Shown here one piece after another: positions 2,527 through 62,111 of a DNA stretch of 64,000 nucleotides. How positions within the stretch are numbered: position 1 is the first letter of the stretch; the number at the start of each line of letters is the position of its first letter. The translations under genes and the position numbers were made by a program. Under the pieces are notes generated by a model. It saw only the letters and a program-made list of their open reading frames with translations, searched no databases and was not told where the DNA came from. The stretch lies in assembly GCA_902765485.1 (NCBI GenBank), contig CACWZZ010000013.1, positions 51,759 to 115,758 of the forward strand, written 5' to 3'. Origin of the DNA: an uncultured Bacteroidales bacterium (lineage in GTDB: Bacteria > Bacteroidota > Bacteroidia > Bacteroidales > Paludibacteraceae).

Positions 2527-3554
2527 TTACAAACCACCTTACATCCTTTGTATAGTTTCTGGTAGCCCTCAACGATCAGGCTGTCACCCGGATTAAGACC
2601 CGAAGTAACCCGCACGCCGGAAGACAAATAGCCTCCGGTGGTGATTTCTCGCCGCACAGCCTCGCCTTGCTCTACCACCCATACAGTCGGTCCTTCGGGC
2701 TTCAGCAAAATGCACCCTGCGGGTACTACGATCTCTTCGCTCGACTGATGCTTTCCGCCATGAATCATTACTTTCGCCACCATACCGTTCATCAGGATCT
2801 CTTTTCCGCCTTTGATCTTCGCCACCACGTCATAGGTGTGCGTGACAGGGTTGGCGGTAACGCTTTTCTCCGTGATCTCAATCGGCAGCACGGTATCTAC
2901 TGCGGCACATTCCACTAATCCGCTGATCCGCTCTCCGGTCAGTCCTTTGATCTCTCCTTCCGGAACCGTGAAACGCACCGAGAATGAAGACACATCCAGG
3001 ATCGAACAAACCTTTGCGCCGGGGATCAACGTCTGACCCTTCTCCGCCTTCAGTCCGTCCATTATTCCGTCGCACGGAGCCTTGAGCGTACATTCCGCCA
3101 GCTGTTGTTTTGCCGCGGCGTAGAGCGATTTGGCTTGCGCTAACTGGCTCTCTATCTCCACCATTTTCTGGTCCGACACTACCCCTTTGGCATGCACCGA
3201 TTTCACACGGTTGTAGCCGTCCTGCGCGTGCTTGAGCGTAGCCTCCGCCGAACGAAGGGCATTCATCGCCTGGGTGTTATCAATGGTCAAAATCGTCTGT
3301 CCGGCTCGTACCTTCTGACCGTTCTTCACCTCGATCGTCACCACACGCCCTGCGCTCTGCATACTGAGCGGCGTCTCGCGCTCCGGCTCGATCGTACCCA
3401 CATAACGCGTAGCAGCACTACTATCGTGCGGCGCAACGACCAAGGTCTTCACGCGCAGAGGCGCTATCTCCTGCGGCGTCTTATCGCTGTGTGTACAAGC
3501 GAGTAAAGCCAACGCCACACATCCTAATATAATATATCTTCCTTTCACCTTCAT
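2523..3554 (-). CDS. RND efflux periplasmic adaptor lipoprotein (membrane fusion protein)
   Basis: This is the adaptor that links an RND pump to an outer-membrane channel. It begins with a lipoprotein signal ending in the lipobox LLAC (Cys about residue 20), so it should be anchored by lipid. A biotinyl-lipoyl-like domain (VKNGQKVRAGQTI), an alpha-helical hairpin at about 90-150 and a beta-barrel domain follow, and a C-terminal part ends in GLNPGDSLIVEG. At 343 residues it is normal for the family. It is upstream of and overlaps the pump gene, so the two are co-transcribed. The ATG at 3554 lies at the edge of a CTTTCAC tandem repeat; a GTG at 3569 inside the repeat is also in frame and would add MKGER. 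Confidence 0.93.
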   Translation of the reverse strand: MKVKGRYIILGCVALALLACTHSDKTPQEIAPLRVKTLVVAPHDSSAATRYVGTIEPERETPLSMQSAGRVVTIEVKNGQKVRAGQTILTIDNTQAMNALRSAEATLKHAQDGYNRVKSVHAKGVVSDQKMVEIESQLAQAKSLYAAAKQQLAECTLKAPCDGIMDGLKAEKGQTLIPGAKVCSILDVSSFSVRFTVPEGEIKGLTGERISGLVECAAVDTVLPIEITEKSVTANPVTHTYDVVAKIKGGKEILMNGMVAKVMIHGGKHQSSEEIVVPAGCILLKPEGPTVWVVEQGEAVRREITTGGYLSSGVRVTSGLNPGDSLIVEGYQKLYKGCKVVCN

Positions 3555-3592
3555 CCTTTCACCTTTCACCTTTCACCTTTCAATTTTCACCT
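3540..3592. repeat. short tandem repeat, CTTTCAC family
   Basis: Heptamer CTTTCAC in about six near-exact tandem copies, in the gap between the MATE gene and the efflux adaptor and reaching into the adaptor start codon region. A second locus of the family lies inside the oxidoreductase gene at 59188. Confidence 0.85.
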
Positions 3593-5009
3593 TCCTCCAT
3601 TCGATAGTAAGGTACGTCGCGCGCGCTATCAGGTGCGCGAAATAACCGATATAGAGTGCCTGCGCTCCAACGAAACGATAAGTGAGCGCATAGCCCAGCA
3701 CAAAACCCGCGGCAGCCCAGATCATGGAATTGCGAATCTGCACACCTGCCGTAGCGCCGACATACACACCGTCCCACATGAACGCCAGCGTGCTAATGAT
3801 CGGCATAGCAATCAACCAGCCGATGTATTTCGTGGAAGCCTCCAATACGGCTGCATCGCTCGTCAAAAGCGCAATAGATCCTTTTCCCCAGATGCCGTAT
3901 ATCGCAGTGAAGATCGCTCCGACTGCCAAAGCCCATAGGAACAGCGCACGTACTACGGCATTGACACCATTGTCCTTGGTAGTTGGTACTTGGTCACTTG
4001 GTACTTGGTCACTTGGTACTTGGTCACTTGGTACTTGGTCACTTAGTACTTGGTCACTTGGTACTTTCCCCCACGCTTTTCCCACCAGCGCTTCGCCCGC
4101 ATAGGCAAAACCGTCCACAAAGAAGGAGAAGAACATAAACAGCTTCATCATAATACTGCTCACCGCCAGCTCGGTGTCGCCGTAGAGGCTGGCGAGAGAA
4201 GTATAACCCACATAAACCACCATGAAACAGAGCGAACGAATAAACAGATTGCCGTTCAGACTCATCATTCGCTTGATCGCTTTCCATTGCATAGCTGCGC
4301 GCCACTCCTCGAAATTCCGGAATAGCGACTTGCCGAAATAGCGTGCAAACAAGATGATCAACGCCAGCAACAGACCGCTGTATTGCGCAATGAGCGTGCC
4401 CCATGCCACACCGACCACTCCCAGCGGCGTATAAACCGCCAGCGCGTAACTCGCCGCCATATTGACCACATTGACCAATATATCAATCGCCATCGGACTC
4501 TTGGTGTCCTGCATGCCGATGAACCAGCCTTTGAAAGTGAACAGACATAAAGTCGCCGGAGCTGCCCAGATACGCACATAGAAATACTTGCGCGCCACAG
4601 CCGCCACTTCTGCCGAACAAGGCACGATGGCTAACACCGCCGTCACGAACACCCATTGGATAGCCCATATCACCAGCGCAGCAATCAGCGCGATCGACAC
4701 ACTCTGGGTCAGTATCTTCCGACACTCGTCCGGCACCTTGGTACTTGGTCCTTTGTCACTTGGTACTTTGTCACTTTGTCCCTTTCCATAGGCTTGCGCC
4801 GTCAGACCGCTGGTGCCGATACGCAGAAAGCCAAAGTTCCAATAGAGCAAATCAAAGAGCATCGTACCGATCGCAATACCGCCGATCGCCGAAGCGTCAC
4901 TCAAGTGACCCACGATAGCAGTATCGACAATTCCCACCAAAGGAATCGTGATATTGGCTAAAATGCTCGGTATCGCCAGCCGTAATATGTCTTTGTTTAT
5001 TGCTTTCAT
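3573..5009 (-). CDS. MATE family efflux transporter with tandem-repeat insertions
   Basis: This is a 12-helix multidrug/toxic compound exporter of the inner membrane (DinF/NorM-like), with the N-terminal signature RLAIPSILANITIPLVGIVD and a repeated second half. At 478 residues it is about 30 longer than usual. The excess is two low-complexity stretches: about residues 77-92 (SDKVPSDKGPSTKVP) and about 316-348, where SDQVP is repeated four to five times. Both are translated from the GGTACTTGGTCACTT repeat family. They fall in predicted loops, and the 15-base unit (five codons) keeps the frame at any copy number. The gene runs in the same direction as the efflux pair. Confidence 0.93.
   Translation of the reverse strand: MKAINKDILRLAIPSILANITIPLVGIVDTAIVGHLSDASAIGGIAIGTMLFDLLYWNFGFLRIGTSGLTAQAYGKGQSDKVPSDKGPSTKVPDECRKILTQSVSIALIAALVIWAIQWVFVTAVLAIVPCSAEVAAVARKYFYVRIWAAPATLCLFTFKGWFIGMQDTKSPMAIDILVNVVNMAASYALAVYTPLGVVGVAWGTLIAQYSGLLLALIILFARYFGKSLFRNFEEWRAAMQWKAIKRMMSLNGNLFIRSLCFMVVYVGYTSLASLYGDTELAVSSIMMKLFMFFSFFVDGFAYAGEALVGKAWGKVPSDQVLSDQVPSDQVPSDQVPSDQVPTTKDNGVNAVVRALFLWALAVGAIFTAIYGIWGKGSIALLTSDAAVLEASTKYIGWLIAMPIISTLAFMWDGVYVGATAGVQIRNSMIWAAAGFVLGYALTYRFVGAQALYIGYFAHLIARATYLTIEWRKVKIER
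3972..4068. repeat. short tandem repeat, GGTACTTGGTCACTT family, in coding sequence
   Basis: About six copies of the 15-base unit GGTACTTGGTCACTT, nearly identical, translated on the minus strand as SDQVP units inside the MATE exporter. It is the longest array of the family in the window. Confidence 0.95.
4736..4784. repeat. short tandem repeat, GGTACTTGGTCACTT family, in coding sequence
   Basis: A more degenerate array (CTTGGTACTTGGTCC, TTTGTCACTTGGTAC) of the same family in the N-terminal third of the MATE gene, between two membrane helices. Confidence 0.85.
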
Positions 5010-5017
5010 CTTTCGAC

Positions 5018-5052
5018 TTCTCTCCCCTGCGGGGGGGAGCCGGAGGGGGCTA
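5018..5052. repeat. GC-rich palindrome, CTCCCC/GGGGAG family
   Basis: An imperfect hairpin (CTCTCCCCTGCGGGGGGGAG) between the AspT-type transporter and the MATE gene. Related palindromes occur at 6730, 13161, 30482, 38899 and 47207. Confidence 0.6.
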
Positions 5053-13211: not shown

Positions 13212-13718
13212 ATGAGAAACCAACTATACATAGTATTGCTTGTGCTAATGGTCCTTTTCTCCGGCTGCCGCCCTAAAGGGATTTTGAGTTCGCGGGAGAT
13301 GCGCCAAGTGCTGGTCGATCTGCATAAGACCGACGGCATGCTGCAGACACGCGGCGCGCGGGGCTTGGAATACGAAGACAGAGACCTGTACTACGCCCAA
13401 GTGCTGGCGAAACATCATGTGACGCAAGCGCAGTTTGACTCCTCGCTCGTCTGGTACACCGCACACCCGCAGTTTTTCAATAAGATCTATCCGAAAGTGC
13501 TCAAAGACCTCGAAGCGGAGGAAGAAGCCTTCAACGAGCTCTACGCCGAAGAGTTGGCAGGCATGAGCCGTCAGAAATCAGAAGTCAGCCCTCAGCATGC
13601 AACATTCAGCCGGACGGATCTGGACAGCGTGCTTTGGGTGATGCAGAACGGCTACGGAAACTCGTGGAGACGATGGGAAAGACCGCTCCCCACTCCTCCT
13701 TACAGAAGCGAAAAATAA
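13212..13718 (+). CDS. DUF4296 lipoprotein
   Basis: A lipoprotein signal (MRNQLYIVLLVLMVLFSGC, Cys near residue 19) is followed by a helical domain of the Bacteroidetes DUF4296 type: SREMRQVLVDLHKTDGMLQ, then LYYAQVLAKHHVTQAQFDSS and YPKVLKDLEAEE. The function of the family is not known. The C-terminal tail (SRQKSEVSPQHA) is encoded by a copy of the GCTGAT repeat family and is probably dispensable. It ends one base from the stop of convergent holA. Confidence 0.85.
   Translation: MRNQLYIVLLVLMVLFSGCRPKGILSSREMRQVLVDLHKTDGMLQTRGARGLEYEDRDLYYAQVLAKHHVTQAQFDSSLVWYTAHPQFFNKIYPKVLKDLEAEEEAFNELYAEELAGMSRQKSEVSPQHATFSRTDLDSVLWVMQNGYGNSWRRWERPLPTPPYRSEK
13568..13602. repeat. short tandem repeat, TCAGAAATCAG (GCTGAT) family, in coding sequence
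   Basis: CGTCAGAAATCAGAAGTCAG and CCTCAGCATGCAACATTCAG are translated near the C-terminus of the DUF4296 lipoprotein. Same family as 14762, 16807, 40365, 51184 and 61737. Confidence 0.7.
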
Positions 13719-14762
13719 TTAGTGCATGATCTTATAGATCAGCTCTTTCCATAGATCGGGATCTTTCGCGGAAGGGTTATTGATTCCTTTCAGCCGCGCA
13801 TCGGTCTCGCGCAAATACCCGATTATAAGAAATGTCTTACCCGCCGAATAGCGCCGGGCAGCCATCTCGTAATCCTTGACGAAATAAGGGTTGATACCCA
13901 ATTCCTTTGCCACCACCGCCTGGGTCTTATTCGGCAGATAGTGGTACATCAGCAGGTTAGAAAAGAAAGTGAACAGAGGTGCCATCTCGCGAATCATGGG
14001 ATGGTCCTTGCTGCCGCCGAAATACTGCGCGATGCGGTTCGCTTTCGCTACATCGCCGCGGATAAGCGCAGACTGAAGCTCCATGATATTATAGTCCTTC
14101 GAGATACCTATATTGCGCTCGACCAGCGCTGCGTCAATCGTGTTCACCCCTTCCGGACGACCCGCAATCAGTTTATCCAATGCACCAACAATCGCCGACA
14201 GGTCTGTTCCCAAATGGTCCGCCAGCAGCGGAGCGACCTTCGGATCGATAGTTAGTCCCCCTTCGTTTCTTCCGCGGGATGAGTTGTATTCGGCGATATA
14301 ATTAAGAATCCATTTCTCCACCTCGTAGTCTCGCAGCTTGTCGGACTGCAGCCAGACGACCTGCGGGTGTTCCGCCACTTTCTTCCAGAGGTTCTGCCGC
14401 TTGTCCGGCTTGCCGTTGTAGCAGATGACCAATACCGTCTGGGGCATAATGACATTCAAATACGCCTCCAATGCCTCCCATTTCTTGACCGCTTGCGCTT
14501 CGCGCACAATGACCACCTTGCGCCCTCCCATCATCGCATACCCGCGCGCGGCAGAGATCACCGGCGCTATGTCCGCTCCCTGCAGATCACGACCATAGAC
14601 GGTCTGCTGGTCAAACTCACGCGCCATCTCGTCCAAAGCGTGCGTGGCAATGAAATCATACACGCGGTCGATATAATACGGCTCCTCGCCGCACAGAACG
14701 TAGATCGGCGCGTACTTTTCGGCTCTCAAAGCCGCCATTATGTCGGAATATTTGGAGGTCAT
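13719..14762 (-). CDS. holA: DNA polymerase III delta subunit
   Basis: This subunit opens the sliding clamp within the clamp-loader complex. The 347 residues follow the family: N-terminal PIYVLCGEEPYYIDRVYDFI, the central GGRKVVIVREAQAVKKWEAL, then ADHLGTDLSAIVGALDKLIA and the C-terminal collar domain with MIREMAPLFTFFSNLLMYH. As usual for delta there is no ATPase P-loop. It reads toward the DUF4296 gene. An array of the GCTGAT repeats separates it from the gene upstream. Confidence 0.93.
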   Translation of the reverse strand: MTSKYSDIMAALRAEKYAPIYVLCGEEPYYIDRVYDFIATHALDEMAREFDQQTVYGRDLQGADIAPVISAARGYAMMGGRKVVIVREAQAVKKWEALEAYLNVIMPQTVLVICYNGKPDKRQNLWKKVAEHPQVVWLQSDKLRDYEVEKWILNYIAEYNSSRGRNEGGLTIDPKVAPLLADHLGTDLSAIVGALDKLIAGRPEGVNTIDAALVERNIGISKDYNIMELQSALIRGDVAKANRIAQYFGGSKDHPMIREMAPLFTFFSNLLMYHYLPNKTQAVVAKELGINPYFVKDYEMAARRYSAGKTFLIIGYLRETDARLKGINNPSAKDPDLWKELIYKIMH

Positions 14763-14813
14763 TTCTGATAGCTGATTTCTGATGGCTGATGGCTGATAGC
14801 TGACGGCTCATTC
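14762..14813. repeat. short tandem repeat, GCTGATN family
   Basis: About six heptamer units (TCTGATA, GCTGATT, TCTGATG, GCTGATG, GCTGATA, GCTGACG) fill the gap between holA and the nucleotidyltransferase-like gene. Confidence 0.92.
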
Positions 14814-15914: not shown

Positions 15915-16853
15915 TTAAGTCAAATCATAGCCGTAATGACGCAAGCGCCCTGTGTTGGAACGCCAGTCGCGATCCACCTTCACGAAGAGCTGCAAGAACA
16001 CTTGTTTCTGGAAGAAATCCTCGATATCTTTGCGAGCCTGCGACCCGACGCGTTTGAGGGCTGCCCCGGCTTTGCCGATGATAATCCCCTTCTGGCTCTC
16101 CCGCTCACAATAGATCACCGCGGAGATGCGGATGAGGTGCTCTTCCTCTTGGAATGACTCCACCTCTACCTCCACCGAATAAGGAATCTCCTTGTCGTAA
16201 TTGAGCAGCACTTTCTCGCGGATGATCTCGTTCACAAAGAATCGCTCGGACTTGTCGGTCAGCTGATCTTTCGGGAAGAAAGGAGGTCCGACCGGAAGTG
16301 CCTCTTTGATCGCGTCGAAGAGCTGCGCTACGCCGAAACGCTCTTGCGCCGAAATAGGAAAGATCTCCGCTTCGGGCAGCTGGCTATGCCAGAACGCGAC
16401 AAGCGACTCAAGGGTCTCTTGGGTCGTCAGGTCAATCTTGTTAATGATGAGGAAAACTCTCATCCCCGCAGCCGCCATCCGCTTCACTTTCTCCAGAAAG
16501 TCGGGATTACGGTCGATGGTGTCCTGCGGCTCGGTCACATAGAGCAACACATCTGCGTCCACCAGCGCCGAACGGCTGAACTCCAGCATTTTCTCTTGCA
16601 GCCTGTAGTTAGGCGAAAGGACGCCCGGAGTGTCGGAATAGACCATCTGGAAATCCTCGCCGTTGACGATACCCATAATACGGTGGCGGGTGGTTTGCGC
16701 CTTCGATGTGATGATCGACAGACGCTCCCCCACCAGCGCGTTCATTAGCGTCGATTTACCCACATTGGGGTTACCAACAATGTTCACAAACCCACTGCGG
16801 TGGGCCTGTGAACATTGCTGATTGCTGATTGCTGATTTCTGATTGCTCATCAT
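15915..16853 (-). CDS. era: GTPase Era with a repeat-encoded N-terminus
   Basis: Era binds the 3' end of 16S rRNA and acts in 30S assembly. It has the G1 motif GNPNVGKS (residues 27-34), switch region TTRHRIMG, G3 DTPG, G4 NKID and G5 SAQ, then a C-terminal KH domain with GIIIGKAGAALKRVG. At 312 residues it is about ten longer than usual. The extra N-terminus (MMSNQKSAISNQQCSQAHR) is translated from heptamer repeats of the GCTGATT family. No other good start exists before the G1 motif, so translation must cross the array. The ATG overlaps the stop of the M16 gene by one base. Confidence 0.95.
   Translation of the reverse strand: MMSNQKSAISNQQCSQAHRSGFVNIVGNPNVGKSTLMNALVGERLSIITSKAQTTRHRIMGIVNGEDFQMVYSDTPGVLSPNYRLQEKMLEFSRSALVDADVLLYVTEPQDTIDRNPDFLEKVKRMAAAGMRVFLIINKIDLTTQETLESLVAFWHSQLPEAEIFPISAQERFGVAQLFDAIKEALPVGPPFFPKDQLTDKSERFFVNEIIREKVLLNYDKEIPYSVEVEVESFQEEEHLIRISAVIYCERESQKGIIIGKAGAALKRVGSQARKDIEDFFQKQVFLQLFVKVDRDWRSNTGRLRHYGYDLT
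16807..16850. repeat. short tandem repeat, GCTGATT family, in coding sequence
   Basis: Five near-exact heptamers (ATTGCTG units with one TTTCTG) form codons 2-15 of era. A change of one unit would shift the reading frame. Confidence 0.92.
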
Positions 16854-19783: not shown

Positions 19784-19834
19784 GTTCTAGTTTATCTAGT
19801 TTAACTAGTTGTTCTAGTTTTTCTAGTTTTTCTT
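19784..19834. repeat. short tandem repeat, TCTAGTTTA family
   Basis: About five units of 8-9 bases (TTCTAGTTTA, TCTAGTTTAA, CTAGTTGT, TCTAGTTT, TCTAGTTTT) between tdh and the M16 gene. Confidence 0.92.
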
Positions 19835-20858: not shown

Positions 20859-20910
20859 TTTTTCTAGTTTATCTAGTTTAACTAGTTCTTCTAGTTTGAC
20901 TAATTCTTTT
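20857..20910. repeat. short tandem repeat, TCTAGTTTA family
   Basis: A near-copy of the array at 19784 (TTTTCTAGTTTATCTAGTTT, then AACTAGTTCTTCTAGTTTG), here between tdh and kbl. It overlaps the last codons of kbl, so tdh is bracketed by the same repeat on both sides. Confidence 0.92.
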
Positions 20911-22096: not shown

Positions 22097-22100
22097 AGTT

Positions 22101-22128
22101 GCTTGTCACTTAGTACTTTGTCACTTTA
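22101..22128. repeat. short tandem repeat, GGTACTTGGTCACTT family
   Basis: CTTGTCACTTAGTACTTTGT followed by CACTTT fills the gap between gdhA and kbl. Confidence 0.8.
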
Positions 22129-24195: not shown

Positions 24196-24202
24196 TACCA
24201 GA

Positions 24203-24335: not shown

Positions 24336-24365
24336 GGGGAAGAAAGGAGGAGCCGTTTTTCAGAT

Positions 24366-32900: not shown

Positions 32901-32930
32901 TTCTTCAAATCTTCAAATTATCCAATTAGC
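32901..32930. repeat. short tandem repeat, CTTCAAAT family
   Basis: AATTCTTCAAATCTTCAAAT followed by TATCCAATT, between zapA and the coiled-coil gene. Confidence 0.65.
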
Positions 32931-33201: not shown

Positions 33202-33238
33202 GACTTGGTACTTGGTACTTAGTCCCTTAGTACTTAGA
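33202..33238. repeat. short tandem repeat, GGTACTTGGTCACTT family
   Basis: GACTTGGTACTTGGTACTTA and GTCCCTTAGTACTTAG fill the gap and touch the last codon of the DUF3078 gene. Confidence 0.85.
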
Positions 33239-34704: not shown

Positions 34705-34744
34705 GAATTAAAAAAAACAACAATAGAATAAAAAAAACAACAAT

Positions 34745-38894: not shown

Positions 38895-38898
38895 ACAA

Positions 38899-38939: not shown

Positions 38940-38943
38940 TATT

Positions 38944-39597: not shown

Positions 39598-39598
39598 A

Positions 39599-39637
39599 CG
39601 ACTAGACAACTAGTCAACTAGTCAACTAGACAACTAT
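39599..39637. repeat. short tandem repeat, CTAGTCAA family
   Basis: ACTAGACAACTAGTCAACTA and GTCAACTAGACAACTA: four 9-base units in the queC-queD gap, related to the TCTAGTTTA arrays flanking tdh. Confidence 0.92.
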
Positions 39638-39641
39638 AAAA

Positions 39642-39974
39642 ATGTACTACGTAGAAAAAAGAGTAGAGATCTCGGCGGCGCATAATTTGATGCTGTCGTA
39701 CGAAAGCAAATGCGAGAACCTGCATGGCCATAACTGGATTATTGTGGTCTATTGCAAAGCCAAGGAGCTGAACCAAGACGGGATGGTGACTGACTTCACC
39801 CACATCAAAAAAGTGGTGAAGGACAGCTTTGACCATAAATATATCAACGAGATATTGGACGTCAACCCGTCCGCAGAGAACATCGCCCGCTGGATCTGCG
39901 ACCATGTAGAGAATTGCTACAAGGTCTCCGTCCAAGAATCCGAAGGCAACACCGCTATTTATGAGAGAGACTAG
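39642..39974 (+). CDS. queD: 6-carboxytetrahydropterin synthase
   Basis: It makes 6-carboxytetrahydropterin from dihydroneopterin triphosphate, the first pathway-specific step. The 110 residues show zinc-binding His residues in EISAAHNL and LHGHNW, the catalytic Cys just before (KCENLHGHNW), and the FTHIKKVVKDSFDHKYIN region with a further catalytic His. Confidence 0.95.
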   Translation: MYYVEKRVEISAAHNLMLSYESKCENLHGHNWIIVVYCKAKELNQDGMVTDFTHIKKVVKDSFDHKYINEILDVNPSAENIARWICDHVENCYKVSVQESEGNTAIYERD

Positions 39975-40007
39975 GATCCTAGGAAACTAGGGCCCTAGGA
40001 TACTAGT
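39972..40007. repeat. short tandem repeat, CTAGGAxxCTAGG family
   Basis: CTAGGATCCTAGGAAACTAG followed by GGCCCTAGGATACTAG in the queD-queE gap; a CTAG-based variant of the 39599 array. Confidence 0.85.
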
Positions 40008-40008
40008 A

Positions 40009-40662
40009 ATGTACCGAGTTAACGAAATATTCTTTACCTTGCAGGGCGAGGGCGCGCACAGCGGTATTCCCGCTGTGTTTGTTCGCTTTAGCGGCTGCAA
40101 TCTGCGCTGCCCTTGGTGCGACACCGACTTTGCGGAGTTTACCGAGATGAGTGCATCGGAGATCATTGAGGAGATGCGCGCACTCTACGACGCGCCCAAC
40201 GAGCGCCGTAAGATGTGCGTCCTCACCGGAGGCGAACCGAGTCTGCAGGTGGACAAACCGCTCATTGATGCGCTACACGAAGCGGGATTCTATATCTGCA
40301 TCGAGACCAACGGCACACGTCCGCTACCAGAAGGGATCGACTGGATCACTTGTTCTCCCAAAGAGTTCAGCCTTCAGCATTCGGCAATAAGCCATCAGCC
40401 GCCTTTGGCGCTCAAGAGAGTGAACGAAGTAAAAGTGGTCTTCACCGGCACGTACGACCCGGAGATCTGGCGCTCCCAGATAGAAGCAGAGCATTGGATG
40501 CTCCAGCCCCTGCGCTACAACGGCGACCTGCTCATGGAGAGCGGGATCGACGAATGGTCGGAGGACAACAACGATAACTTGGACGAAACGGTCCGCTATA
40601 TCCTCGCCCACCCTTTCTGGCGACTCAGCGTCCAACTCCATAAGATCATCGGCCTTCGATAA
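40009..40662 (+). CDS. queE: 7-carboxy-7-deazaguanine synthase (radical SAM)
   Basis: It rearranges 6-carboxytetrahydropterin to the 7-deazapurine. The 217 residues have the radical-SAM iron-sulfur motif with Cys at 30, 34 and 37 (FSGCNLRCPWCDTD) and the glycine-rich LTGGEPSLQ. About residues 120-135 (FSLQHSAISHQPPL) are an insertion encoded by the GCTGAT repeat family, placed after the conserved TCSPKE. The gene closes the queF-queC-queD-queE group. Confidence 0.94.
   Translation: MYRVNEIFFTLQGEGAHSGIPAVFVRFSGCNLRCPWCDTDFAEFTEMSASEIIEEMRALYDAPNERRKMCVLTGGEPSLQVDKPLIDALHEAGFYICIETNGTRPLPEGIDWITCSPKEFSLQHSAISHQPPLALKRVNEVKVVFTGTYDPEIWRSQIEAEHWMLQPLRYNGDLLMESGIDEWSEDNNDNLDETVRYILAHPFWRLSVQLHKIIGLR
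40365..40402. repeat. short tandem repeat, TTCAGC/CATCAGC family, in coding sequence
   Basis: GTTCAGCCTTCAGCATTCGG and CAATAAGCCATCAGCCGCC are translated in queE. Confidence 0.8.
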
Positions 40663-41653: not shown

Positions 41654-41702
41654 AACGTAATTTACAATTTAGTAATTTACAATTCAGTAATTTACAATTA
41701 GT
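41654..41702. repeat. short tandem repeat, AATTTACAATTTAGT family
   Basis: Three units of 15 bases (AATTTACAATTTAGT, AATTTACAATTCAGT, AATTTACAATTAG) between tonB and the DJ-1 gene, reaching the tonB stop codon. Confidence 0.93.
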
Positions 41703-43609: not shown

Positions 43610-43615
43610 ATTAAT

Positions 43616-43654
43616 TTTCAAATATCAAATATCAAATCTTCAAATCCTCAAATG
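43616..43654. repeat. short tandem repeat, CAAATAT/CAAATCTT family
   Basis: Five units (CAAATAT twice, CAAATCTT, CAAATCCT, CAAATG) in the gap between exbB and pdxJ. Confidence 0.88.
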
Positions 43655-43656
43655 AC

Positions 43657-44644: not shown

Positions 44645-44722
44645 AAATGACATGACCGAATTGACCGGATTGACCGTTTGGGGGGTGAAACGGTCAAAAA
44701 GGTCAAAACGGTCAGAACAAAA
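44645..44722. repeat. short repeat, GACCGAATT/GGTCAAAAC family with inverted halves
   Basis: GACATGACCGAATTGACCGG and ATTGACCG in the left half, AACGGTCAAAAAGGTCAAAA and CGGTCAGAAC in the right half. The two halves are inverted and can form a hairpin around GTTTGGGGGGTG. Confidence 0.8.
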
Positions 44723-49723: not shown

Positions 49724-50652
49724 CAAAGAAAGATTTACGAATCATATTTCTCGGCACGCCGGAGTTTGCGGTAGCAAGTCTGCAAGCGTTGGTAGAAGGC
49801 GGTTATAATGTGGTCGCGGTGGTCACCATGCCGGACAAGCCTGCAGGCAGAGGACACCAGATGCAGTTCTCGGACGTGAAGAAATATGCGCTGTCGGTCG
49901 GTCTGCCGGTGTTACAGCCGGAGAAGCTGAAAGACGAAGCGTTCCTTGAAGAGCTGCGTTCGTACCATGCGGACCTGCAGATCGTAGTGGCATTCCGTAT
50001 GTTGCCGGAGGTCGTTTGGGCGATGCCTCGGCTCGGCACGTTCAACTTGCACGCGTCGCTTTTGCCCCAATACCGCGGCGCTGCGCCGATAAACTGGGCG
50101 GTCATCAACGGCGACAAAGAGACCGGAGCGACCACTTTCATGCTCAAACAAGAGATCGACACCGGTAACATGATCCTGCAAGAGAAGATCGCCATCGGCG
50201 AGGACGAGAACGTCGGTTCGGTGCACGACCGACTGATGGAGATGGGAACCGGATTAGTGACCCGCACGGTGGATCTGATCATTGAATGCGAGACCAACGG
50301 TACGCCGCTGCCGACCACGCCGCAGCCGGAGATAGCTGAGCTGCGCCCTGCGCCGAAGCTGTTCAAAGAGACCTGCGAGATCCGCTTCGACGAGATGAGT
50401 GCCGAACAAGTGCATAATTTCGTTCGCGGTCTCAGTCCATACCCTGCGGCTTGGGCGAACCTGACGATCCACGGACAGAGCTTCGAGAACGTCAAGATCT
50501 ATCAAGTCGAAATAGCGGAATCCCGACATACCGAGATATCGAAAAACGAAATTGTCATCCCTTGCCGCGAAGGGGCGGTGCGGATTCTGGAGCTGCAAGT
50601 GCCGGGCAAGAAACGAATGGACGCAAAAGCGTTTCTCAATGGACTACATTAA
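49720..50652 (+). CDS. fmt: Methionyl-tRNA formyltransferase
   Basis: It formylates initiator Met-tRNA. The 310 residues have the folate-binding formyltransferase core with LHASLLPQYRGAAPINWAVI, QEIDTGNMILQ and a C-terminal OB-like domain (VHNFVRGLSPYPAAWANL). A segment at about residues 266-280 (ESRHTEISKNEIV) is encoded by the TCGAAAT repeat family. The start overlaps the lgt stop by four bases. Confidence 0.95.
   Translation: MTKKDLRIIFLGTPEFAVASLQALVEGGYNVVAVVTMPDKPAGRGHQMQFSDVKKYALSVGLPVLQPEKLKDEAFLEELRSYHADLQIVVAFRMLPEVVWAMPRLGTFNLHASLLPQYRGAAPINWAVINGDKETGATTFMLKQEIDTGNMILQEKIAIGEDENVGSVHDRLMEMGTGLVTRTVDLIIECETNGTPLPTTPQPEIAELRPAPKLFKETCEIRFDEMSAEQVHNFVRGLSPYPAAWANLTIHGQSFENVKIYQVEIAESRHTEISKNEIVIPCREGAVRILELQVPGKKRMDAKAFLNGLH
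50514..50552. repeat. short tandem repeat, ATATCGAAA family, in coding sequence
   Basis: AATAGCGGAATCCCGACATA and CCGAGATATCGAAAAACGAA are translated in the C-terminal domain of Fmt. Confidence 0.72.
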
Positions 50653-51187
50653 ACTCATAGATAAGTACTACGGCGAGAGTCCGGAGTTGCGGCATGTGTT
50701 AGTGACGCACAGCAGGCAGGTGGCAGACCGTGCGCTGCGGATTGTGGACGCCCATCCGCAATGGGAGGCGGAAGGGCTGGTGGATCGCACGTTCATCGAA
50801 GAAGCCGCCATGCTGCACGACATCGGAATTATCTATTGCAACGCGCCGAAGATCTACTGCAACGGTCCGCACGCCTATATCGAGCACGGGTATTTAGGCG
50901 CAGAGTTGCTGCGCAAAGAAGGTCTGCCGAAGCATGCCTTGGTCGCCGAACGGCACACCGGAACAGGTATCACGATCGAGCAGATCGAGCGCGAAGAATT
51001 ACCGATCCCCGAACGCAATTATTGCCCGCAGAGCTTGGAAGAGAAAATCATCTGCTACGCCGACAAATTCTATTCGAAAAGCCACCTCGGCGAGGAAGTG
51101 TCTTTAGAGAAAATCAAATACAATATCTGGAAATACGGCCACGAAGCGTTCGTCAGGTGGCAGGAGCTGGAGGCTCTGTGCAACTGA
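50639..51187 (+). CDS. HD-domain hydrolase
   Basis: The 182 residues contain an HD phosphohydrolase domain: HVLVTHSRQVADRAL, the metal-binding pair in AAMLHDIGIIYCN, and later His residues in YIEHGYLGAEL and ERHTGTG. Relatives act on nucleotides; the substrate is not known. The ATG at 50639 overlaps the fmt 3' end by 14 bases, so it belongs to the nadK-lgt-fmt operon. Confidence 0.87.
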   Translation: MDYIKLIDKYYGESPELRHVLVTHSRQVADRALRIVDAHPQWEAEGLVDRTFIEEAAMLHDIGIIYCNAPKIYCNGPHAYIEHGYLGAELLRKEGLPKHALVAERHTGTGITIEQIEREELPIPERNYCPQSLEEKIICYADKFYSKSHLGEEVSLEKIKYNIWKYGHEAFVRWQELEALCN

Positions 51188-51214
51188 CAACTGATGGCTG
51201 ATAACTGACGGCTA
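51184..51214. repeat. short tandem repeat, CTGATGG family
   Basis: CTGACAACTGATGGCTGATA and ACTGACGGCT at the convergent boundary between the HD gene and the DUF3078 gene. Confidence 0.8.
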
Positions 51215-57408: not shown

Positions 57409-57420
57409 ATTATTTAGTTT

Positions 57421-57510
57421 ATGTTAGTTACTGCGTGTTGATGACGGCTCTGCCGTGTTTGGGACTGCGTGTTGGTTACTACGTGTTAACAGCGAAGCTC
57501 ATAAACACGC
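57421..57510. repeat. short tandem repeat, TTACTGCGTGTTGG family
   Basis: Units such as TTACTGCGTGTTGATG, GACTGCGTGTTGG, TTACTACGTGTTAA, followed by inverted AACACGCAGTC. They fill the gap between hypA and the small membrane protein gene. Confidence 0.9.
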
Positions 57511-57522
57511 AGTCATAAACAT

Positions 57523-57894
57523 TCACTTACCAACAGCCTCCGGCTCATCAACATTTACTCTTATCTCCTTTATCTCCACCTCGTTGCCGCGCAGGAGCCA
57601 TGTCTTCTCGCTCCCGCAATGAGGGCAGATCTTGCCGTGCGCCACAGTGGGATAATCCTTTCCGCACCCGTCGCAATGGGTCACAGCAGGTATGGGTTCG
57701 ATCTTCAGCTCGCAGCCCCGCAGCAAGTCCTCTTTATCCGCAGCCCACCGCCAGCAGTCGGTCAGGTATTCCGGAATGATCGTACTCACCTCGCCTATGT
57801 TCATCACAACAGTCGAGACGTGCTCCACCCCGTTCTCCTCCGCCGCTTTTTTCACGTCACGGATGATATAGAAAACGATCCCCAGTTCGTGCAT
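57523..57894 (-). CDS. hypA: Nickel metallochaperone HypA
   Basis: It delivers nickel for the assembly of [NiFe] hydrogenase and, in some bacteria, urease. The 123 residues start with MHELGI, whose His2 and Glu3 bind nickel. The zinc site has Cys at 74, 77, 90 and 93 (HCDGCGKDY and ICPHCGSEKT). Residue count and order fit the family. It shares a strand with hypB, but two other genes lie between them, and no hydrogenase subunits are encoded in the window. Confidence 0.94.
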   Translation of the reverse strand: MHELGIVFYIIRDVKKAAEENGVEHVSTVVMNIGEVSTIIPEYLTDCWRWAADKEDLLRGCELKIEPIPAVTHCDGCGKDYPTVAHGKICPHCGSEKTWLLRGNEVEIKEIRVNVDEPEAVGK

Positions 57895-57985
57895 TAGTTA
57901 CTAAGTGTTGGTAACGGCTTCGCCGTGTTTGTTACTACGTGTTGGTAACTGCGTGTTTGTTACTGCGTGTTAGTTACTACATGTT
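57893..57985. repeat. short tandem repeat, TTACTGCGTGTTGG family
   Basis: At least five units (TTACTAAGTGTTGG, TTACTACGTGTTGG, TAACTGCGTGTTTG, TTACTGCGTGTTAG, TTACTACATGTTG) on the hypA side of the four-helix-bundle gene. The array supplies the stop codon of that gene. Confidence 0.92.
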
Positions 57986-58356
57986 GAGGCGTCGTGTTGC
58001 CGAAGTGTCTCCATAAACGAGTTTAGCTTCAGGGAGAGATCTATGCAGCGGTTTCGGAATAGTTTTGCTTTTTCCTCATCTATATATCCTAAGTCTTCCG
58101 CTGCATAAAACATACTTCTTACTTCGCCACATGAACCAGCAGCTATATTCAAAAAGTTTAAAAATTGCTTATTATCCTTTGAATTATTACTTCTTTCAAA
58201 ACCCTCTGCAATATTGTTCATAATTGAAATTGCAGCTCTTTGGATCTGGTCATTAAACCCAAAATCTCTACAAGTCTTAAATGATGAGTATATATCTTTC
58301 ACAAGGGTTCTTGCCAACTGCCACACTACTAAATCCTCAAATTTATAAACTTTCAT
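57970..58356 (-). CDS. Four-helix-bundle protein (23S rRNA IVS-type, S23 family)
   Basis: The 128 residues match the family first seen in intervening sequences of 23S rRNA genes: KFEDLVVWQLARTLVKDIYS, the signature FNDQIQRAAISIMNNIAEGF, ERSNNSKDNKQFLNFLNIAA and a last helix with NSFMETL. Its molecular function is unknown. It is more AT-rich than the hyp genes around it and is enclosed on both sides by arrays of the TTACTGCGTGTT family. This suggests that it was inserted as a unit into the operon. Confidence 0.9.
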   Translation of the reverse strand: MKVYKFEDLVVWQLARTLVKDIYSSFKTCRDFGFNDQIQRAAISIMNNIAEGFERSNNSKDNKQFLNFLNIAAGSCGEVRSMFYAAEDLGYIDEEKAKLFRNRCIDLSLKLNSFMETLRQHDASTCSN

Positions 58357-58359
58357 TTT

Positions 58360-58478
58360 TTACTGCGTGTTAGTTACTGCGTGTTGGTAACTGCGTGTTA
58401 ATTACTGCGTATTAACAGCCGAAGGCTTACAAACATGAAATTATCAACACAAAGTTATCAACACGAAGTTATCAACAT
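58360..58478. repeat. short tandem repeat, TTACTGCGTGTTGG family
   Basis: TTACTGCGTGTTAG, TTACTGCGTGTTGG, TAACTGCGTGTTAA, TTACTGCGTATTAA, then a drifted group (TTATCAACACAAAG, TTATCAACACGAAG, TTATCAACATTTAC) in the other orientation that reaches the stop of the oxidoreductase gene. Confidence 0.9.
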
Positions 58479-61304
58479 TTACTTAAAAATAATCTTTCCT
58501 GCGCGTTTGATCATATACGGCAATATTCCGTCGAACTTGTTCTCCGAGGTGCGCATGACGCTTGCCTCCGGATGTTCGCGGTGCAGATGGATCGCGTCGA
58601 AGCCGCACTTGGTCGTACAAATACCGCAACCGATACAGCGGTTTTCATCTACTACCGACGCGCCGCAACTGAGGCACCGAGCCGTCTCTATCTTCACCTG
58701 CTCTTCGGTCAGCGTACCGTGGTATTCGGCGAAATTGCTCTTCGTCGGAATAACGCCCGGTTCCTGGCGGCTGCTGTTATCGTATTGCTCTACGCGGATG
58801 TCGCTCTTGTTCAGTTCGATGAAATCGCGTCTGTTGCGACCGATGGTCATGTGACCGTGCTGCACGAACCGGTGCAGACTCTCGGCAGCTTCCTTGCCTG
58901 CCGCGATAGCGTCGATAGCGAACTTAGGTCCGGTATAGACATCGCCGCCGACGAAAATATCTTCTTCGGCAGTCTGGTAAGTCAGCTTGTCGGCTACGGG
59001 GTACACGCCGCGAACAAACTCCACCTTGGTGTCCTTCAGCAAGTCTTTCAATACCACCGTCTGTCCGATCGCGAAGATCACGAGGTCAGCCTCCAGCGTA
59101 AGAGTCTCGTTCTCGTCGAACTTCGGTGCAAACTTATGCTGTTCGTCAAACACAGACACGCACTTCTTGAAGGTGATTCCTTTCACCTTTCCACTTTCAC
59201 CTTTCACTTCCATCGGTCCCCATCCCGGGTTAATGATCACGCCGTCCTCACGCGCCTCCATGCGCTCTTCGAGCGAAGCAGGCATGATATCTTCGGTCTC
59301 CAGCGACAGCATCGTCACTTCGCTTGCGCCGCTGCGTTTGGCTACACGCGCTGCGTCGATAGCTACGTTTCCGCCGCCGACCACAACTACTTTGCCGCTG
59401 ATCTTCTTGCCTCCGCAATTAGCGTCGTGCAGGAAATCAATCGCCGTCGTCGTGCCTTCGAGTTCCTGCCCGGGAATGCCCGGCAGACGACCGCCCTGGC
59501 AACCGATAGCTACATAGAAGCCCTTGTAACCCTCTTTGCGCAGGTCTGCGATGGTAACATCCTTTCCGACCTCTACGCCACAACGGATCTCCACACCTAT
59601 CTCACGCATGATATCGATCTCGGCTTTGATGACCTCTTTGTCCAGTTTGTAGGACGGAATACCGTATCGCAGCATACCGCCCGGCTCTTCGTTCTTCTCA
59701 AAGACCGTGGGCTTGTAACCCATCGTCGCCAGATAATAAGCACAACTCAGTCCGGCTGGACCGCCGCCAATGATAGCGATTTTCTCTTCCCAGCGCTCTT
59801 GCACATTGGAGCATATATTGACCTCCGGAATGAATCGTGTCTCGGCATGCAGGTCGCGGTCAGCAATAAATTTCTTGACTGCGTCGATAGCGATCGCGCG
59901 GTCTATCGTGCCGCGGGTACAAGCGTCCTCGCAACGGCGATTGCAGACCCTTCCGCATACTGCCGGGAACGGATTCTCGCGTTTGATCAGCTCCAACGCC
60001 TCGGTGTATTTGCCTTCCGCAGCTTTCCTGAGGTAACCCTGCACAGCGATATGTGCCGGACAAGCGGTCTTGCAAGGTGCCGTTCCGGTCGGATAACAAT
60101 TGACGCGGTTGTCGTCGCGGTAGTTCTCGTTCCATTTCTCCGGTCCCCATTTGGTCGCGTCCGGCAACTCCTGCTTCGGATAAGTCTGCGGTCCGTGCGC
60201 AGTGCATAGTTTCTGCCCCAACTTGACAGCACCCGCAGGGCAGTACTCCACGCACCGTCCGCAGGCGACACATTTCTTCGGATCGACCTCCGCCACGTAC
60301 GCGCTACGCGACATATTAGGAGTGTTGAACAACTGCGACGTACGCAGCGCGTTGCATATCTTGACGTTGCAGTTGCAGATCGCGAAGATCTTACCTTCGC
60401 CGTCGATATTGGTCACTTGGTGCACAAAACCGTGATCTTCGGCTTTCTTGAGGATCGCCATCGCCTCGTCGTATGTGATGTCGTGTCCTCGTCCGGTCTC
60501 GCGCAGGTAGTCCGCCATGTCGCCCACACCGATACACCAGTCGCGGTAGTCGTCCGCGCAGCCCTCGTCCAGTTTCTTGCGACCGTACCGGCAGGAACAG
60601 ATTCCCACACCTATATGCCCTTCGTATTTCTTGAGCCAGTAGCTGATATGCTCTATATCGACCGACTGGTTCTCCATCGAGATCGCTTTCTCCACAGGAA
60701 TAACGTGCATACCTATACCGCTACCGCCCATCGGCACCATTGGCGTGATCTTCTCCAGCGGCAGGAACGTCATGCGCTCGAAGAACATTGCCAACTCCGG
60801 ATGACGGTCCATCAGCTCGGTGTTCATATTGGTATATTCGGCGCTTCCGGGCACAAACATCGGCACCCAATAGATTCGGTCCTCGCGGTTGAAAGTCGTG
60901 CCTGCGTCCGGTCCCTGACCGTTGGTGTAATGGTCGCCGTAGTCGTACTCCAGCATGCCAAAATACGCCAATTTGTCCAGCAACTCGTCGAAACTCTTAT
61001 CGTCCGGCGTGTAGTGTTTCGTGGCGTTCATCTCGTGCAACTGCGCGTACGTGTGGTGCTTGCGTACCTTAAAGAAATTACCGGGCAGCATGTCCAGCAA
61101 CAGATCCAGCGACGCCTCACGCGTCACAGCATCCATCTCGTCCTCAAAGATACAGGCGAGACCCCAATACTCCGGGGCGTCAGTAGTCATCTTGATCTTT
61201 CCGGGAATACGGTCCGTCACGTGGCGGACAAACTTCAACAACTTCGGATTCGGGTTCTTGTCCCCTTTGTGCTTCGGGACAAACTTCTTTGACATTTCAG
61301 GCAT
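58479..61304 (-). CDS. Large Fe-S/FAD oxidoreductase of the GltD (glutamate synthase small chain) superfamily
   Basis: The 941 residues have several parts. The N-terminal domain (1-330) has a Cys-rich part (GVGICSCRYGRKKLDEGC, FAICNCNVKICNA). A 4Fe-4S ferredoxin motif follows near 350 (CVACGRCVEYCPAGAVKLG), then a GltD-type Fe-S helical domain near 420-490 (CKTACPAHIAVQGY, CGRVCNRRCEDACTRG). FAD and NAD(P) sites come next (IAIIGGGPAGLSCAYYLA near 520, VVVGGGNVAIDAARVAKRSG near 655), then a C-terminal ferredoxin motif (CIGCGICTTKCGFDAIHLH). It should move electrons between NAD(P)H and an iron-sulfur partner. VKGESGKVKG near 705 is a repeat-encoded insertion. Confidence 0.85.
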   Translation of the reverse strand: MPEMSKKFVPKHKGDKNPNPKLLKFVRHVTDRIPGKIKMTTDAPEYWGLACIFEDEMDAVTREASLDLLLDMLPGNFFKVRKHHTYAQLHEMNATKHYTPDDKSFDELLDKLAYFGMLEYDYGDHYTNGQGPDAGTTFNREDRIYWVPMFVPGSAEYTNMNTELMDRHPELAMFFERMTFLPLEKITPMVPMGGSGIGMHVIPVEKAISMENQSVDIEHISYWLKKYEGHIGVGICSCRYGRKKLDEGCADDYRDWCIGVGDMADYLRETGRGHDITYDEAMAILKKAEDHGFVHQVTNIDGEGKIFAICNCNVKICNALRTSQLFNTPNMSRSAYVAEVDPKKCVACGRCVEYCPAGAVKLGQKLCTAHGPQTYPKQELPDATKWGPEKWNENYRDDNRVNCYPTGTAPCKTACPAHIAVQGYLRKAAEGKYTEALELIKRENPFPAVCGRVCNRRCEDACTRGTIDRAIAIDAVKKFIADRDLHAETRFIPEVNICSNVQERWEEKIAIIGGGPAGLSCAYYLATMGYKPTVFEKNEEPGGMLRYGIPSYKLDKEVIKAEIDIMREIGVEIRCGVEVGKDVTIADLRKEGYKGFYVAIGCQGGRLPGIPGQELEGTTTAIDFLHDANCGGKKISGKVVVVGGGNVAIDAARVAKRSGASEVTMLSLETEDIMPASLEERMEAREDGVIINPGWGPMEVKGESGKVKGITFKKCVSVFDEQHKFAPKFDENETLTLEADLVIFAIGQTVVLKDLLKDTKVEFVRGVYPVADKLTYQTAEEDIFVGGDVYTGPKFAIDAIAAGKEAAESLHRFVQHGHMTIGRNRRDFIELNKSDIRVEQYDNSSRQEPGVIPTKSNFAEYHGTLTEEQVKIETARCLSCGASVVDENRCIGCGICTTKCGFDAIHLHREHPEASVMRTSENKFDGILPYMIKRAGKIIFK
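59188..59214. repeat. short tandem repeat, CTTTCAC family, in coding sequence
   Basis: CCTTTCACCTTTCCACTTTC and ACCTTTCACTT inside the oxidoreductase gene; the second CTTTCAC locus of the window. Confidence 0.88.
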
Positions 61305-61313
61305 GGTATTATT

Positions 61314-61408
61314 TACGATTTAATGATTTACGATTTATTTTCGATTCTTCGATTCTTCGATTCTTCGATTCTTCGATTTTTCGATATATCGATATTTCGG
61401 TATTCCGA
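61314..61408. repeat. short tandem repeat, TTCGATTC family with a TTTACGATTTA start
   Basis: TTACGATTTAATGATTTACG is followed by five exact TTCGATTC octamers from about 61346, then drifting units TTCGATTT, TTCGATAT, ATCGATAT, TTCGGTAT. It fills the gap between hypB and the oxidoreductase gene. Confidence 0.96.
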
Positions 61409-61409
61409 A

Positions 61410-62111
61410 TTATTCCTTCCAACGAGCAACTTCCTTCATCAGCCACTCGGCAAAAATATCGACTCCTTCGCCCGTCTTGGCGCAGATCGGAATAACGGTA
61501 GCTTTCGGGTTGCGCATGTGGATGTACTCCTTGCATTTCTCCATATCGAAATCGAAGTACGGCAACACATCAATCTTGTTGATCACTACCACGTCGCAGA
61601 TAGAGAACATAAGCGGATATTTGAGTGGTTTGTCATGCCCTTCGGGCACAGACAGGATCATAGCGTTCTTCACGGCGCCGGTATCGAACTCCGCCGGACA
61701 AACGAGGTTCCCCACGTTCTCCAAAATAACGAGGTCGAAGGCTGAAGGCTGAGAACTGACTTCTGACGGCTGCCCACCGATTACGGCATTCAGCCCTTGC
61801 TTCGTCATCTCTGCGTCCAGATGGCACATGCCGCCGGTATGCAGCTGGATCGACTCCACGCCGGTTGCCTCCTTGATCTTGATGGCATCCACGTCGCTGT
61901 CTATATCCGCCTCCATCACGGCAATACGGATCTTGTCCTTCAGACGGTTGATGGTCTGAATGAGCGTAGTGGTCTTGCCGCTGCCGGGCGAAGACATCAG
62001 ATTGAGGAGAAAGACGCCTTTCTTTTTCAGTTCTCCGCGCAAGGCGTCAGCAGCGCGATCGTTATTCTCGAAGACACTCTTCTTGATCTCGATGATTTTT
62101 ACGTTTTCCAT
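61410..62111 (-). CDS. hypB: Nickel-handling GTPase HypB
   Basis: It uses GTP to pass nickel, with HypA, to the apo-enzyme. The 233 residues have the P-loop SPGSGKTT near 41-48, the metal-site motif GGMCHLDA with Cys96 and His97, and the guanine-specificity motif NKID. There is no His-rich N-terminal nickel store. The segment at about 112-124 (GGQPSEVSSQPSA) is an insertion from the GCTGAT repeat family. It is the first gene of the operon and has a clear promoter. Confidence 0.94.
   Translation of the reverse strand: MENVKIIEIKKSVFENNDRAADALRGELKKKGVFLLNLMSSPGSGKTTTLIQTINRLKDKIRIAVMEADIDSDVDAIKIKEATGVESIQLHTGGMCHLDAEMTKQGLNAVIGGQPSEVSSQPSAFDLVILENVGNLVCPAEFDTGAVKNAMILSVPEGHDKPLKYPLMFSICDVVVINKIDVLPYFDFDMEKCKEYIHMRNPKATVIPICAKTGEGVDIFAEWLMKEVARWKE
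61737..61772. repeat. short tandem repeat, GGCTGAA family, in coding sequence
   Basis: AAGGCTGAAGGCTGAGAACT and GACTTCTGACGGCTG are translated in hypB. Confidence 0.88.

Follow-up and report, generated by a model that had tools for sequence, protein, structure and literature searches.

The 64-kb stretch of DNA analysed here (the window) belongs to contig 13 of an uncultured Paludibacteraceae genome of 2.12 Mb in 41 contigs, 82.8% complete, and carries short tandem repeat arrays at gene junctions and inside genes. On balance, we favour the view that these arrays are genus-wide, multi-family and interchangeable fillers of permissive sites, which would grow by slippage, be exchanged as short tracts, survive within the limits set by the reading frame and be mostly non-adaptive passengers. 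Such sites would be found between stop and start codons within operons, at the N-terminal edge of Era, and in protein loops, among them loops of a MATE transporter and of a TonB-receptor-like protein. Where the arrays lie, that their families recur, that frames stay open through some of them, that their length changes in a sister species and that one filler replaces another at orthologous sites can all be read from sequence comparison; the last of these, filler replacing filler at a fixed site, was a main event seen and had not been foreseen in the first-pass annotation of this DNA. The relatives compared are metagenome-assembled genome (MAG)-type records of uncultured rumen and gut bacteria, largely from ruminants and labelled Paludibacteraceae or Bacteroidales. 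Gene calls are our own, and gene starts are uncertain throughout.

Abundance and recurrence of the arrays

Tandem Repeats Finder (TRF) returned 50 rows in the window, which merged into 36 arrays. Across a 464-kb sample of the same genome (the window plus 20 stretches of 20 kb), 227 merged arrays were obtained against 18, 11 and 5 in three dinucleotide shuffles, and 100 against 1, 0 and 0 at a TRF score of at least 60. The arrays reported by the first-pass annotation are thus real, and the places it named hold the units it gave. It had also put them at gene boundaries, in agreement with the 131 of the 227 that lie in called intergenic sequence; a further 8 lie at gene edges and 88 in called genes, which cover about 84% of the bases.

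For seven families, the units were confirmed by reading the sequence at the named places. The 15-mer family has the unit TTGGTAC followed by TTGGTCAC; other units in the window are GCTGATN, CTAG-containing 8-, 9- and 16-mers, TTACTGCGTGTTGG, TCGA 8-mers, CTTTCAC and CAAATCTT. About ten unit families recur at unlinked places, both in this genome and across the genus. Among 213 arrays of the genome, 557 pairs share 8-mers, compared with a mean of 64 and a maximum of 72 over 20 decoy sets in which the unit was permuted; 520 arrays of relatives gave 1809 linked pairs, compared with 380 in decoys (maximum 406). Family clusters extend across genomes, with CTAG present in 26 and GGTGAAA in 28. A 38-nt pattern of the CCAAGT family (up to three mismatches) matched this genome 11 times, on contigs 1, 12, 13 and 20, and its reversed control had 0 matches. 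The claim that many families each recur at unlinked places, including further loci of the genome, is borne out by these counts.

Same-strand gaps of 20–75 nt in the window were periodic (p < 0.05) in 13 of 23 cases, with one borderline, and 148 of 340 same-strand gaps of 24–80 nt were more periodic than all of their 20 shuffles (about 16 expected). In three genus samples, periodic gaps of 24–80 nt numbered 37/83 (the 464-kb sample), 14/36 and 109/259, compared with 2/18 in two other genera of the family and 1/24 in other families (sequences shorter than 3 kb were left out). Pooled, these counts are 160/378 within the genus and 3/42 outside it (Fisher p = 2.7e-6). The earlier statement that arrays fill almost every same-strand gap of 20–60 bases was therefore overstated. 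Strong TRF arrays are scarcer outside the genus but do occur there: two samples, of 80 and 205 kb, held 0 and 10 respectively, compared with the 100 in 464 kb of this genome. A CCAAGT-family 24-mer with an alternating 7+8 unit (up to one mismatch) occurred in 22 of 178 genus genomes and in none of 197 others sampled from the order. Multi-family arrays are a property of the genus, concentrated in it, and not of one genome; the recurrence described by the first-pass annotation stands, and its reach across the genus had not been foreseen there. A literature search found no description of such arrays in the Paludibacteraceae, which does not of itself prove that there is none. Carriage by phage was considered and set aside: a CCAAGT-family 27-mer, from the single family tried, had no exact match in viral contigs.

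Filler replacement at the kbl–tdh junction

The junction between kbl and tdh was compared in 72 species (80 loci, less 9 without an adjacent tdh, plus the window), with spacers ended at the conserved tdh start because the gene caller starts tdh too late in some loci. The two genes share an ATGA overlap or lie within 5 nt of each other in 29 species (a 4-nt overlap in 12), and are separated by 6–19 nt in 3, by 20–60 nt in 30 and by more than 60 nt in 10. Spacers of at least 24 nt were periodic in 31 of 38 cases, with families unrelated to one another: from stop to start, the fillers include the CTAG 9-mers of the window, CCCTAGGAA, GACAAAGT, AATCGTCA, TTATTCA, AACAGTTT and AAATG units, and elsewhere GC-rich sequence that lacks tandem units, or a palindrome of 131 nt. 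Periodic spacers were also found before kbl (40 of 71 species), between tdh and the M16 protease gene (31 of 64) and between the latter and era (15 of 59); these three spacers were taken as the gene caller gave them, and the M16–era spacer is partly Era coding sequence.

Sister pairs on the kbl+tdh tree carry differing kbl–tdh alleles in 20 of 27 cases, so array sites change far faster than the genes that adjoin them. By Fitch parsimony, 27 alleles took 40 steps (minimum 26), close to the mean of 42.2 for shuffled labels (lowest 39); these alleles therefore retain little phylogenetic signal. More signal remains at the other three junctions, where 48, 44 and 34 steps compare with 53.2, 53.6 and 39.8 on average after shuffling. 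Relatives do not simply keep each array in its place and diverge in the ordinary way, the outcome that would have excluded active spread; at many sites the array differs in family or in length, or is missing.

Identical or near-identical spacers of 41 and 131 nt were found in species whose kbl and tdh are about 80–87% identical. In the first 30 nt of tdh, pairs with the same allele (29) exceeded pairs with different alleles (522) in similarity by +0.111, a difference reached in 0 of 2000 permutations; in every other bin, to 600 nt on each side, the difference was below 0.02. Pairs with spacer identity of 0.60–0.85, spacers shorter than 15 nt or overall identity outside 0.80–0.90 were excluded, kbl identities of L049, L061, L064 and L068 were not used (artefacts of a shifted start), and the species pairs lack independence. 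Shared alleles lose their excess similarity within 30 nt of the spacer. In L070, whose sister L072 is empty, the spacer and the last ~15 nt of kbl resemble those of L025 and L048, and its own sequence resumes at the tdh start; in L030, whose sister L039 is empty, the 131-nt spacer and the tdh start resemble L016. Flanks shared over so short a distance suggest replacement of very short tracts, with other species or other sites as the source.

A GC-rich 130-nt spacer without tandem units is common to the kbl–tdh junctions of L033 and L061, both of whose sisters are empty, and contig L015 terminates in similar sequence, which suggests a multicopy element.

Comparison with a sister species

Contig 9 (88,287 nt) of the sister species G081 aligns with the window over 58 kb at 93.8% nucleotide identity. 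Of the 36 arrays, 27 could be compared (7 lacked anchors and 2 a usable interval), and 8 of these had changed in length and 3 had been swapped in place; the remaining 16 were of equal length in this one 64-kb syntenic comparison. From window to sister, lengths changed from 92 to 32 and from 49 to 34 nt in the MATE loops, and elsewhere from 62 to 28, 70 to 23 and 43 to 29 nt, among others; the eight include an A-rich run. The MATE changes are whole 15-mer units (60 nt at 3975 and 15 nt at 4737), unlike other changes, which are not exact unit multiples (14 nt at 41657, for example). At the swapped sites, the sister has a CCCTCCC-type hairpin in two cases and, where the window carries a CTAG array, an AATTGA array in the third. 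Substitutions cluster by eye on one flank of two of these sites, a pattern that would fit a replaced tract.

The sister also carries about 3.3 kb of extra DNA opposite window positions 24200–24380 (3523 nt, where the window has 180 nt). A GC-rich hairpin repeat (CCCTCCCTTGAGGGGAGGG and variants) lies at 38895–38943 of the window, opposite window positions 26633 and 33203 in G081, and before kbl in L017, L022, L044 and L068, and so occupies array-type sites.

Arrays within proteins

Turning to translated arrays, the 54 listed MATE matches gave 30 loci, one of them from this genome. Arrays lie in two loops of the encoded protein. Among the 29 orthologs from other genomes, 14 have a short loop 1 and 15 a longer one, and many of the longer forms contain tandem units, such as GGTGAAAGGTTAAAG, GTGAACGAGTTAACG and GGTGAGCGGTTACCG; loop 2 is equally varied, with TCAG-type repeats in L181 and L201. 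Era begins MH(K/R)SGFVN in several array-free species (for example L030, L039, L044 and L090), and in array-bearing species is extended by open in-frame sequence that takes at least seven different forms, some partly alike. The receptor-like protein, which has a weak NCBIfam match, reads VTKGLSTKGQSTKGL in this genome and SAPSLEGRAGEGF in the sister species. The earlier claim that some arrays are translated is backed for both MATE arrays, the one in the receptor-like protein and the one at Era, since the frames are open in relatives; for the others, the frame is that of called genes or open reading frames (ORFs) alone.

At the M16–era junction (window 16788–16852), an inverted repeat, AATGTTCACAGGCCCACCG/CAGTGGGTTTGTGAACATT, adjoins the array and extends into Era coding sequence; by eye, it seems to co-vary on both sides in L026, L029 and L065.

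Origin and spread of the arrays

The molecular machinery of exchange is something that we infer. Slippage would lengthen and shorten arrays and would explain the 15-nt steps, and the replacement of one family by an unrelated one at a fixed site would need a donor. New array types may arrive when a short tract is replaced with foreign or ectopic array DNA as the template and short homology as the anchor, much as in short-patch illegitimate recombination. Selection would purge frame-breaking events and leave survivors where the frame is not lost; since spacer length is unconstrained from one stop to the following start, and loops tolerate an open frame, such selection would explain the sites at which arrays survive. 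It may also favour A-rich unstructured sequence or hairpins 5' of the next start codon. Loss of mutS1 was considered and rejected: mutS1 scored over the cut-off in this genome and in 29 of 30 others, the single exception being 54% complete (mutL and other repair genes were not searched).

Copying between sites of one genome is supported by arrays lying more than 1 kb apart in one 20-kb locus, which were similar in 63 of 884 pairs, compared with 17.5 after permutation (standard deviation 4.2; maximum 35 in 500) when L071, a near copy of L069, was dropped; between loci in non-orthologous context, 884 of 58,044 pairs were similar. Copying of whole arrays together with their unit order is only weakly supported. 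Unlinked arrays share a 20-mer in 113 pairs, compared with 82.5 in unit-order decoys (maximum 102), and at 22 and 25 nt the counts fall within the decoy range; this weak sharing means that some family recurrence could be convergent.

That result is one of several that weigh against mobile, passive fillers. The kbl side of the shared alleles lacks a comparable excess of similarity, and selection on initiation, in place of transfer, could account for the co-variation seen over the first 30 nt of tdh. The kbl–tdh tree length was matched by 43 of 1000 label shuffles, and the tree was built on kbl and tdh, genes that may themselves recombine. The 16 arrays of unchanged length in the sister species count on the same side, as do units that look locally derived, such as AAATCAT (L038, L042), which echoes the junction ends GAAAT/AAATG. 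The palindromic class mostly comprises four or five cores (49 of the 60 CTAG runs of at least three cores), and its spacers fold beyond shuffles, with mean z of −3.05 for CTAG (43 spacers), −2.61 for TACG (12) and −2.47 for TCGA (17). Some long arrays consist of an invariant core and free linkers (TCAG, with 14 and 15 units); 16 of 192 arrays passed this test at p < 0.05 against 9.6 expected, which limits the pattern to some long arrays. Pure passengers need not show fixed cores or excess folding.

If the arrays were ordinary simple-sequence satellites, each would have grown from its own local slippage seed and then decayed, and they would look alike because junctions of the AAATGA, TGAAAGG and TAAAT kinds are alike. 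The sister length changes and 15-nt MATE steps suit such an origin, as do unit-order decoys almost as similar as the real arrays and units that match junction ends, and the available excerpt of PMC6749651 describes bacterial heptamer satellites as locally arisen. Yet the units CTAGTTAAA, CCAAGTGA and CCCTAGGAA are by eye unlike empty junctions, the same or nearly the same 41- and 131-nt spacers recur where kbl and tdh differ by ~13–20%, arrays are swapped in place in the sister, and the alternating 7+8 unit was found in genus genomes and in none of the others of the order. Family recurrence and shared alleles thus oppose independent local origin, the unit-order result and junction-like units leave it some room, and we consider it unlikely while giving it real weight. 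A dedicated exchange process of the genus, in which a putative enzyme or single-stranded-DNA-templated pathway writes modules from a shared repertoire into junctions and loops, is a speculative reading to which we give slightly less credence; if true, it would yield fast, horizontally shuffled diversity of intercistronic RNA and loop peptides. Functional RNA cassettes, with the arrays and hairpins of spacers serving to bind a protein or to adjust how the following gene is translated and being exchanged under selection, could explain the excess folding of the palindromic-core families (mean z −2.5 to −3.1), the invariant cores with variable linkers, and the orientation of several families along the gene in same-strand gaps (GTGAAA 13:1, AAATG 18:2 and CCAAG 13:3, with directions named after looking; TCAAAT and TTTAAC, each 4:4, show no bias). 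Translational regulation was proposed by MacGregor in 2015 for TAACTGA repeats, as excerpted from PMC4679880. The same families are translated in protein loops, however, unrelated families substitute for one another, and 29 of the 72 species have a kbl–tdh spacer of at most 5 nt or none, so that we find this reading rather improbable. A generic count of RNA hairpins in gaps of 60–400 nt (246 of 574 passing, 184 after shuffling) was uninformative.

Non-autonomous mobile elements of the miniature inverted-repeat transposable element (MITE), enterobacterial repetitive intergenic consensus (ERIC) or REPIN type would require a transposase to move palindromes with array-built arms, single-arm arrays being remnants. 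The 131-nt palindrome has the look of such an element: it is dispersed, with a match in 111 of 178 genus genomes and, by hand count, at least 13 with two or more near-full-length copies, and it folds by its complementary arms as one long hairpin, several copies lying directly 3' of TAA among the matches listed. No target duplication was seen by eye at the copies among those matches, no common family ends were noticed, and several families are single-arm; spacers of the GTGAAA, CCAAGT, AATCGT and TCAAAT families show no folding excess over shuffles (4–7 spacers each). A Y1 (RAYT) partner was rejected, as PF01797 had no match in this 82.8%-complete genome and, across 101 genus genomes, scored over the cut-off in only 24; no search covered other transposase families. 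Mobile elements of this kind seem to us distinctly improbable as the explanation. Misassembly or misbinning might be suspected, since the relatives are MAG-type records and repeats are hard to assemble; the same alleles nevertheless occur in assemblies of separate projects (RUG, UBA, RGIG and other sets), frames remain open, and most arrays, at 20–100 nt, fall within the length of usual short reads, so we give an artefact hardly any credence.

If the arrays are indeed interchangeable fillers, short repeats of this kind belong to a common set and are not private satellites of one site, and species hold them in common with almost no flanking DNA while the adjoining genes stay conserved. The spread of heptamer-type repeats in bacteria, and the shortest tract exchanged in nature, would then be testable from sequence, and the junctions and loops would form a natural experiment on the tolerance of an operon spacer and of a protein loop. 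Near such sites, both the calling of start codons and the building of phylogenies can go astray.

Relation to known repeat systems

Cyanobacterial short tandemly repeated repetitive (STRR) sequences consist of degenerate heptamer units in tandem at mainly non-coding places. The first-pass annotation had drawn its parallel with heptamer repeats of other bacteria and placed the DNA in a Bacteroidales genome, both aptly. Here, 7-mers are common but 8-, 9-, 11- and 15-mers also occur, 88 of the 227 arrays lie in called genes, and the nearest records are Bacteroidales MAGs rather than cyanobacteria. As far as the excerpts of the papers cited below extend, one close likeness is with the P6b element of the Nostoc trnL intron, where short degenerate units occupy non-coding sequence and one repeat class has been replaced by another at the same site several independent times (PMC4476775); that case involves two classes in one intron, whereas about ten families are found here at operon junctions and in proteins, with alleles common to distant species. 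TAACTGA direct repeats occur in Beggiatoaceae, cyanobacteria and five Bacteroidetes, including Paludibacter, with two sets of TAACTGA-type repeats in Paludibacter propionicigenes (PMC4679880). They likewise form heptamer arrays often just 5' of start codons, in one orientation, but with one favoured heptamer, related heptamers being rarely repeated; the present arrays lie in stop-to-start spacers, show an orientation bias in some families, comprise many families that swap, and extend into protein loops.

Rickettsia palindromic elements also comprise several families inserted in frame in unrelated genes (PMC10969869), and in-frame insertion in conserved genes was found here for the MATE transporter, the receptor-like protein and Era. 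Those elements measure ~150 bp, whereas arrays here are mostly 20–100 nt (20–92 nt in the window), several classes lack excess folding, and arrays are swapped at fixed sites; the 131-nt element alone resembles the ~150-bp type. Borg tandem repeats share the location between genes and in frame within them, and the fast evolution, but their units are perfect and independently arisen (PMC9879509), in contrast to the imperfect units from recurring families seen here. Mrazek's long simple sequence repeats (LSSR), with units of 5–11 nt as described in PMC4679880, match the 7–9-nt tandem units, and their copy-number change in whole units was found in the MATE loops (60 and 15 nt); that description, as excerpted, contains neither family recurrence, nor replacement, nor precise stop-to-start filling. 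The Y1 (RAYT) partner typical of MITE/REPIN systems was not found in this genome (PF01797; other transposases were not searched). Within their excerpts, PMC4476775, PMC4679880, PMC10969869, PMC9879509 and PMC6749651 describe no set of numerous interchangeable families that replace one another at orthologous junctions and loops.

Array positions and other repeats of the window

Table 1. Repeat arrays located in the window, with strand and sequence context.
Array	Position	Strand	Context
GGTGAAA family	3541..3602		stop/start junction of 2523-3554 and 3573-5009 (- genes); 62 nt, sister 28 nt
CCAAGTA/CCAAGTGA 15-mer	3975..4066	-	translated, MATE loop aa 313-350; 92 nt, sister 32 nt
CCAAGT family	4737..4785	-	translated, second MATE loop aa 75-95; 49 nt, sister 34 nt
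TCAGNNN (CTGAN) family units	13560..13600		within called gene 13299-13718 (+)
TCAGNNN family	14761..14808	-	fills spacer upstream of holA, stop to start
TCAGNNN family	16814..16847	-	M16 protease–era junction; in-frame Era N-terminal extension (MMSNQKSAISNQQCSQAH-)
CTAG 9-mer	19785..19833	-	tdh–M16 spacer
CTAG 9-mer	20859..20908	-	fills kbl–tdh spacer; gives kbl stop codon and two extra residues relative to array-free species
CCAAGT family	22097..22125	-	fills spacer upstream of kbl
CCAAGT family	26633..26680	-	translated, TonB-receptor-like protein; sister has in-frame GC-rich hairpin module instead
TCGA/CCGA 8-mer	30853..30893		in ORF 30137-30985 (+), not called by gene caller; same in sister
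TTTGAAGA (CAAATCTT) spacer array	32901..32925	-	
CCAAGT family, spacer array	33202..33237	-	sister has CCCTCCCTTGAGGGGAGGG hairpin at that place
CTAG 8-mer	39598..39641	+	fills spacer after queC; sister has AATTGA array
CCTAGG 16-mer	39970..40008	+	fills spacer before queE; identical in sister
TCAGNNN family units	40365..40400		within queE
TTGTAAATTACTAAA 15-mer, spacer array	41654..41697	-	sister copy 14 nt shorter
ATTTGA(T/AGG) 7-8-mer, spacer array	43610..43656	-	downstream of pdxJ, upstream of 233-aa ORF
TCGA/CCGA units	50505..50545		within fmt
CTGAN	51184..51213		convergent boundary of 50639-51187 (+) and 51212 (-)
TTACTGCGTGTTGG units round GGCTTCGCC-type centres	57415..58490		three places, at least two with inverted arms (palindromic elements)
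CTTTCAC	59179..59209	-	within called gene 58479-61295
TCGATTC 8-mer	61339..61408		70 nt, sister 23 nt at same place

Beside these families, a second class of arrays has 11-bp units, at 24263–24317 and 34671–34702 of the window and at L123:10561, L130:10812, L133:347 and L140:11183. These hold 2–6 copies, mostly in longer gaps, with units that often differ from place to place, and are possibly protein-binding sites one helical turn apart. A two-copy 20-mer repeat, ATAGAATTAAAAAAAACAACA (34702–34745), lies directly 5' of the start at 34745 of a large ORF with a weak match to a type IX secretion system (T9SS) tail. Finally, serial 9-mer arrays, in which GACCGTTTT-type units are followed by CGGTCAATT-type and further units, occur at 44653–44718 of the window, L122:5215–5315 and L123:2384–2559; two of these are identical at three genome places and mutually complementary, in the manner of a hairpin element.

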